From positions 1-64,000 of the forward strand of contig NZ_MPDK01000007.1 of assembly GCF_003144315.1 (NCBI RefSeq): a stretch of DNA of 64,000 bases, written 5' to 3'. The stretch comes from Sulfoacidibacillus thermotolerans (GTDB lineage: Bacteria; Bacillota; Bacilli; Alicyclobacillales; SLC66). Positions 1 through 40,346 of the stretch are shown here, piece by piece (the first letter of the stretch is position 1; each line of letters starts with the position of its first letter). The position numbers and the translations under genes are program-made. Below the pieces are notes generated by a model that ran no database searches, had not been told where the DNA came from, and saw only the letters and a program-made list of their open reading frames with translations.

Positions 1-69
1 CCGCCGTATGCGGACCCGCATGTACGGTGGTGTGAGAGGTCGGGGGCTAGCCGCCCCCTCCTACTCGAT
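1..69 (+). mobile_element. Group II intron 3' end (domains V and VI), cut by the window edge
   Basis: The first bases fold as a domain V-like hairpin: CCGTA at about 4-8 pairs with TACGG at about 22-26 around an inner GCG/CGC stem. A domain VI-like hairpin follows, with GGGGGC (42-47) pairing to GCCCCC (53-58), and then the tail CTACTCGAT. The phrase GTGTGAGAGG followed by a C/G-rich hairpin and CTACTCGAT is the usual 3' end of bacterial group II introns (known family pattern). The reverse-transcriptase ORF would lie left of the window. The domain V apical loop reads GACC by eye instead of a GNRA loop, so the copy may be divergent. The exact 3' splice site (69 or 70) is inferred. Confidence 0.75.
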
Positions 70-28878: not shown

Positions 28879-28986
28879 CTCTTATCGAGAGTGGCGGAGG
28901 GACTGGCCCGATGAAGCCCGGCAACCGACAGCTTTTGCTGTAGTGGTGCCAATTCCAGCAGGCGATTGTGACCTGAAAGATGAGAG
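28879..28986 (+). promoter_or_regulatory. SAM-I riboswitch (S-box) upstream of metY
   Basis: The conserved core is unmistakable: TATCGAGAG, GGCGGAGGGACTGGCCC, GATGAAGCCCGGCAACC and CTGAAAGATGAGAG. P1 is CTCTTATC (28879-28886) with GATGAGAG (28979-28986). A GC-rich segment with GAAGGGG and a TTTTTTG run follows at 29020-29040 as the terminator, so high SAM should stop transcription before metY. Confidence 0.95.
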
Positions 28987-39764: not shown

Positions 39765-39793
39765 TTGCAAATTACATCTTGTGGTCTTATACT
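39765..39793 (+). promoter_or_regulatory. speD promoter
   Basis: TTGCAA (39765-39770), a 17-base spacer and TATACT (39788-39793). The start near 39800 leaves a leader of about 160 bases before speD. Confidence 0.7.
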
Positions 39794-39799
39794 AACACT

Positions 39800-39959
39800 C
39801 GTACCTCTTACAGAGAGTGAAGTAGTCACATTATAGGAACCAGCATCCTCTTAAAGGGTTAGGACCTCACAGGACTAACTTTCCCCCGTGGTGGATGGCG
39901 GAGGTCCCGCCATGCTTGGGAGGGCATGGGATTTTCATGATAAAGGGGGATGTTTTGGT
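39800..39959 (+). promoter_or_regulatory. Structured speD leader, candidate cis-regulatory RNA
   Basis: Pairings seen by eye: stem A, GGACCTC (39862-39868) with GAGGTCC (39901-39907); stem B, ATGGCGG (39895-39901) with CCGCCAT (39907-39913); stem C, CCATGC (39910-39915) with GCATGG (39924-39929). A excludes B, and B excludes C, so A+C and B are alternative states. TCCCCC (39882-39887) can pair with GGGGGA (39945-39950) and hide the ribosome site. No known riboswitch class was recognised. Confidence 0.5.
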
Positions 39960-40346
39960 ATGGATACAGCTGGACGTCATGTAATTGCAGAACTATGGGG
40001 TTGCAAAGCCGATACATTGAATGATCTTCAAGGCATTGAACGAGGGATGGTTACTGCGGCGCTTGAGTCTGGCGCAGAAGTGCGTGAAGTCGCTTTTCAT
40101 AAATTTGCTCCACAAGGTGTAAGTGGCGTAGTCATTATATCCGAATCACATTTGACGATTCATAGTTTTCCCGAGCATGGATATGCAAGCATCGATGTTT
40201 ATACATGTGGGGATCGCATCGATCCAAATGTTGCGTGTGATTTCATTACCAAGGCATTAGGAGCAACACGTCGAGAATCTGTAGAATTGCCGCGCGGAGT
40301 AGGGCCGATTGCGGTGGGTCAGCAAAAAATTGAAGTGTTAAGCTAG
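39960..40346 (+). CDS. speD: S-adenosylmethionine decarboxylase proenzyme
   Basis: A 128-aa class 1B SpeD that cleaves itself to form a pyruvoyl group and gives decarboxylated SAM for spermidine synthesis. The cleavage site lies in [10 protein letters not shown] with the pyruvoyl Ser at residue 63; His68 and Cys83 (VYTCG) are the other active-site residues. ATG 39960 follows AAAGGGGGA (39942-39950) at about 9 bases; the open frame extends upstream through the structured leader but is not used. The partner speE lies 17 kb away. Confidence 0.95.

Follow-up and report, generated by a model that had tools for sequence, protein, structure and literature searches.

S-adenosylmethionine decarboxylase, the product of speD, catalyses the committed step in the synthesis of spermidine. 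The literature that we searched does not explain how Bacillus-like bacteria control this step. The question is raised by the speD gene of Sulfoacidibacillus thermotolerans, which lies within the 64,000-nucleotide stretch of DNA analysed here (contig NZ_MPDK01000007.1, positions 1 to 64,000; referred to as the window) and is separated from its promoter by a leader of about 160 nt. An earlier note on this DNA had proposed a cis-regulatory RNA in the leader that is positioned to act on the ribosome site, and this is borne out by covariation and by a conserved complementarity to the Shine-Dalgarno (SD) sequence. We consider it rather probable that the leader exerts a cis-acting translational control like that of pseudoknot riboswitches, with a ligand-dependent hiding of the SD sequence and with spermidine (or another polyamine, or decarboxylated SAM) as the signal.

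The predicted conserved fold consists of the helices P0, P1 and P2, the hairpin P3 and an internal CCCCC strand facing the GGGGG of the SD sequence (Table 1). P0, P1 and P2, and with them the main conserved core, had been missed in the earlier reading. For P2, a version with a GG bulge was discarded in favour of a contiguous AGGGUUAG/CUAACUUU helix, two pairs of which change from GU to GC. The promoter, the stems A, B and C and the TCCCCC/GGGGGA match are all present where they had been claimed. All 52 leaders from the window's order have TTGCA.-17-TATACT at a distance of 49-108 nt on the 5' side of the core, so that the element should be transcribed; a transcript beginning downstream of position 39870, which the note had named as speaking against its proposal, does not fit this arrangement, as the motif is preceded by the promoter. 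In single-sequence folding the energy of the window leader is nothing unusual compared to shuffles (z = -0.82), and thermodynamics by itself would therefore not flag it.

Table 1. Features of the speD locus in the window and the basis on which each was placed.
Feature	Position	Strand	Basis and remarks
speD promoter TTGCAA-17-TATACT	39765..39793	+	sequence; kept in order-level relatives
P0 5' strand GGAACC	39836..39841	+	own versus swapped partners; one A.C mismatch in the window
P1 5' strand	39844..39850	+	covariation, 64 cores; one U.U mismatch in the window (39849/39892)
J1/2 internal loop UUAA	39851..39854	+	alignment A5; nearly invariant
P2 5' strand AGGGUUAG	39855..39862	+	pairs with 39875-39882; U-A to G-C and A-U to G-C in other lineages
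P2 apical part GACCUC-ACA-GGA	39863..39874	+	kept in most lineages, replaced in a few
P2 3' strand CUAACUUU	39875..39882	+	alignment A5, covariation
SD-complementary strand CCCCC (predicted pseudoknot)	39883..39887	+	complementarity in 40 full-length leaders
J2/1 internal loop GUG	39888..39890	+	nearly invariant; variants GUA/AUA
P1 3' strand	39891..39897	+	covariation
P0 3' strand GGUCCC	39903..39908	+	covariation and swap tests; overlapped by the 3' arm of stem A
P3 hairpin (stem C of the earlier note)	39910..39929	+	covariation
SD sequence AAAGGGGG	39942..39949	+	GGGGG 39945-39949 is the predicted pseudoknot partner
speD, S-adenosylmethionine decarboxylase	39960..40346	+	PF02675 match, E 8.1e-39

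The relatives were collected by searching genomes of the window's family and order for SpeD, which was found in 51/59 of them; 52 upstream regions were extracted, a few of which share one genome, and all of them have in common the near-invariant core ACTTAAAGGGTTAGGACCTCnnnGGACTAACTTTCCCCCGTGGT and an AGGGGG-type SD sequence. In an alignment of 64 cores (A5, in one row of which, L155, the 3' half is misaligned) standard pairs occupy 92.7% of the cells of P1 and P2, against 26-48% in slid registers, and 98 cells with double changes are counted against 34 in shuffles; none of the 500 shuffles reaches 98, and these shuffles contain no phylogeny model, yet the double changes are recurrent across many families. 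The same positions of P1 are occupied by CG, UA, AU and GC in different leaders, whereas P2 changes from UA to GC in one family and from AU to GC in a second class. The hairpin P3 corresponds to stem C (CCATGC 39910-39915 / GCATGG 39924-39929) of the earlier note, for which the covariation across relatives is clear-cut: 98.8% of the cells are paired, with 33 double changes and 0/500 shuffles reaching this (A7, 40 full-length leaders). Moreover, in P0 (GGAACC/GGUCCC) the own partner beats swapped partners, with 0/1000 swaps reaching the observed pairing. Covarying stems, here P1/P2, P3 and P0, and a fixed place 5' of one gene within its transcript, which are expected for a structured cis-regulatory RNA, are thus both found.

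The complementarity of TCCCCC (39882-39887) to GGGGGA (39945-39950) had already been pointed out for the window, and the CCCCC/GGGGG part of it is conserved in relatives: it is present in essentially all leaders tabulated, and in 99.5% of the cells of the 40 full-length leaders. In three sampled genomes only 14-19% of the genes with a recognisable SD sequence have GGGGG, a baseline that comes from sampled stretches with starts picked by best SD and is thereby overstated, so that GGGGG in every leader is not a background effect. Since the helix is nearly invariant, covariation support for it is thin. However, in divergent Paenibacillus-like leaders a core CUCC or UCUCCU is accompanied by an SD sequence GGAG or AGGAGA, and the divergent anti-SD strands pair better with the SD sequences of their own group (17.3) than with those of other groups (13.7 and 14.1), the overall swap test (254/5000) being suggestive only. 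The predicted pairing would provide an expression platform that is able to hide the SD sequence.

Beyond the order of the window, a covariance model was searched in 398 genomes of its class with E values up to 0.1, giving matches in 215 genomes, about 18 of which look like noise because of their score or the lack of speD. The element is therefore present in approximately 197/398 sampled genomes, and a speD-family gene in 292. Weak matches without speD (L140, L142-L147) were rejected as noise. A model of the core alone detected the element in 15/154 genomes of a second class and in two genomes of one further family, and a pattern scan returned Bacillus tequilensis, B. halotolerans, B. paralicheniformis, Halobacillus, Planococcus, Thermoactinomyces, Exiguobacterium and others. 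The gene directly 3' of the motif is speD in 40/40 diverse loci, in 17 credible divergent loci and in 117 of the 119 pattern matches of the collection scan, the other two loci being truncated, and speD is near the motif in all 15 loci of the second class. It is the sole gene linked to credible copies of the motif, and no exact match to the motif was found in viral contigs. Two records deserve mention on their own account. A Bacilli-type speD leader is found in a record titled Pseudomonas sp. ISL-84 (L214), which is probably misnamed, and Bacillus sp. FJAT-42315 (L236, 300-930) contains two identical leader copies about 565 bp apart with an N run between them; the first copy of speD is incomplete there, which may reflect an assembly fault.

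The element can be divided into two modules, namely the AAAGGG/CCCCCGUG core and the P0/P1 internal loop GGAACC-AG / RACGNN-GGUCC. Most Bacillaceae members have kept P1, P2, the core and the SD sequence and have lost P0 and P3, whereas Paenibacillus-like leaders have a shorter AAAGGG/CCCCC core or none, and AGGAACCAGGATTCACT ... AGTGAATGACGTAGGTCCT, comprising P0, its internal loop and P1, is almost fixed in them. As both modules are present in the window's family, in several other families and in the second class, the ancestral RNA probably had both, either of which can be reduced. There is about an even chance that the leaders constitute a widespread undescribed riboswitch class for spermidine or another metabolite of the polyamine pathway, located at speD in Bacilli and at least one further class and built of two separable modules, maybe with two binding sites. 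In Paenibacillus-like leaders (L327-L338, L345-L370) a downstream hairpin UCCUAGC/GCUAGGA shares its UCC with P0 and ends beside the SD sequence, and the two may be mutually exclusive. One locus (L091, 801-976, minus strand) has an insertion of about 50 nt in the apical part of P2, which could itself be able to fold, and an otherwise intact core and SD sequence. In genome G196 the first speD-like gene (L329) has the divergent form of the leader, and there is no sign of a leader at the second and third (L343, L344).

For the mechanism we propose that P0, P1 and P2 form a hairpin whose internal loop, with UUAA on one side and CCCCCGUG on the other, presents the CCCCC strand, which would then pair with the GGGGG of the speD SD sequence, with the P3 hairpin lying between. 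Formation of this pseudoknot would hide the ribosome site and block initiation. It presumably depends on a small molecule in the near-invariant internal loop, the ligand-bound state would repress speD, and with spermidine as the signal (alternatively another polyamine or decarboxylated SAM) the committed step would come under end-product feedback. An argument for a bound ligand is the near-invariance of the unpaired strands. What speaks for a sensing of SAM, spermidine or another polyamine, as had been suggested for the window, is the exclusive association with speD, which points to a metabolite of the polyamine pathway and most simply to spermidine as the end product. Points against this explanation are the thin covariation support for the CCCCC/GGGGG helix, the Paenibacillus-like leaders, in which P0 and P1 are fixed and the core is shorter or missing, and the failure to identify an alternative ON-state structure. 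Three other types of control were rejected or disfavoured. P3 of the window is flagged as terminator-like; a transcription attenuator was rejected since no conserved U-run follows P3 and P3 is missing in many members, and an RNA thermometer, i.e. a plain SD-masking hairpin, since the bases of the internal loop are nearly invariant. No codon position is spared by the invariant runs, and loops differ in length by one base, which appears to disfavour control by a leader peptide (uORF).

The same RNA with the same SD pseudoknot might instead respond to SAM or an adenosyl compound (dcSAM, MTA) and tune speD to the SAM supply, and the exclusive link to speD, whose product consumes SAM and makes dcSAM, fits any of these ligands. 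This reading is unlikely: if SAM were sensed, copies should occur at met genes as well, yet every credible copy is found at speD, and the window's genome already has a SAM-I element elsewhere. Alternatively, the leader may bind a protein, so that SpeD itself, a ribosomal protein or an RNA chaperone controls translation. Autogenous leader RNAs are common in Bacilli, which counts for this possibility. So does the enrichment of the B. subtilis speD leader region by Hfq (PMC3574147). However, the same core serves SpeD proteins that are only about 40-50% identical, and near-invariant loop bases beside an SD pseudoknot would be more typical of a small-molecule pocket, and we thus regard protein binding as quite improbable. 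Very improbable is a passive, non-sensing element whose sole effect is a lower basal translation or a more stable mRNA: no alternative ON-state structure was identified in the leader and large parts of the RNA are lost in several lineages, which would fit such a role, but the unpaired core bases are near-invariant across dozens of families and recur in the second class, and plain SD masking would not need them. Finally, the switch of the earlier note, in which stems A (GGACCTC 39862-39868 / GAGGTCC 39901-39907) plus C alternate with stem B (ATGGCGG 39895-39901 / CCGCCAT 39907-39913), is almost certainly wrong, since stems A and B, perfectly complementary in the window and with B even part of its minimum-energy fold, are paired in only 73% and 53% of the cells, respectively, are missing in Bacillaceae members and lack the covariation seen for C, while the 3' arm of stem A (GGUCC) covaries with GGAACC of P0 instead of the 5' arm of A. 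The last pair of stem A is formed in 8/40 sequences and stem B is found only in some members of the window's family, so that both appear to be at most lineage-specific complementarities.

Returning to the proposed ligand-dependent pseudoknot, we compared the element with known families. The view that the leader is neither SAM-I nor another known class agrees with our searches, as it has no match to any Rfam 15 family (cmscan up to E = 5), and neither have 30 further leader loci. This includes the SAM-I fold (RF00162) as well as SAM-II, SAM-III (SMK), SAM-V, preQ1 and the other Rfam riboswitch models. The SAM-I element that had been noticed elsewhere in the window is confirmed by an RF00162 match at 28879-28986 (+) with 93 bits, and at the edge of the window (1-69, +), cut by it, there is a borderline match to a group II intron end (RF00029). 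Its wide occurrence in Bacillus-like bacteria and the lack of a match to any catalogued family make the speD element a probable new translational switch of polyamine synthesis. In the main texts of open papers that we searched, its only earlier trace is a 79-nt Hfq co-precipitation peak in B. subtilis, the uncharacterised "speD leader region" (PMC3574147), reported without structure, family or function; it is very probably the same leader, because B. tequilensis, a member of the B. subtilis group, carries the motif. With a conserved RNA in B. subtilis relatives that is absent from Rfam, the question of control becomes testable in a standard laboratory strain. speD is absent from the main texts of the RNA-discovery papers PMC8632094, PMC6429828, PMC11109978 and PMC2864571, and the odc1 and potE motifs, candidate leader RNAs of other polyamine genes (PMC8632094), differ from the speD element in their genes and described structures. 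Evidence for polyamine riboswitches was long unconvincing, as noted in PMC10853860, and the spermidine riboswitch of that paper, reported as an OFF switch, controls polyamine-synthesis genes with speD among its targets, as the element described here would. Its aptamer is a variant of SAM-I, whereas the speD element has a different fold and does not match RF00162. In the preQ1, SAM-II and SAM-III/SMK translational riboswitches the aptamer itself contributes the strand that captures the SD sequence, so that the ribosome site is hidden on folding. The speD element resembles these in its proposed SD-capturing pseudoknot and has no sequence or covariance match to them, and unlike them it would take its anti-SD strand from the asymmetric internal loop of a long hairpin.
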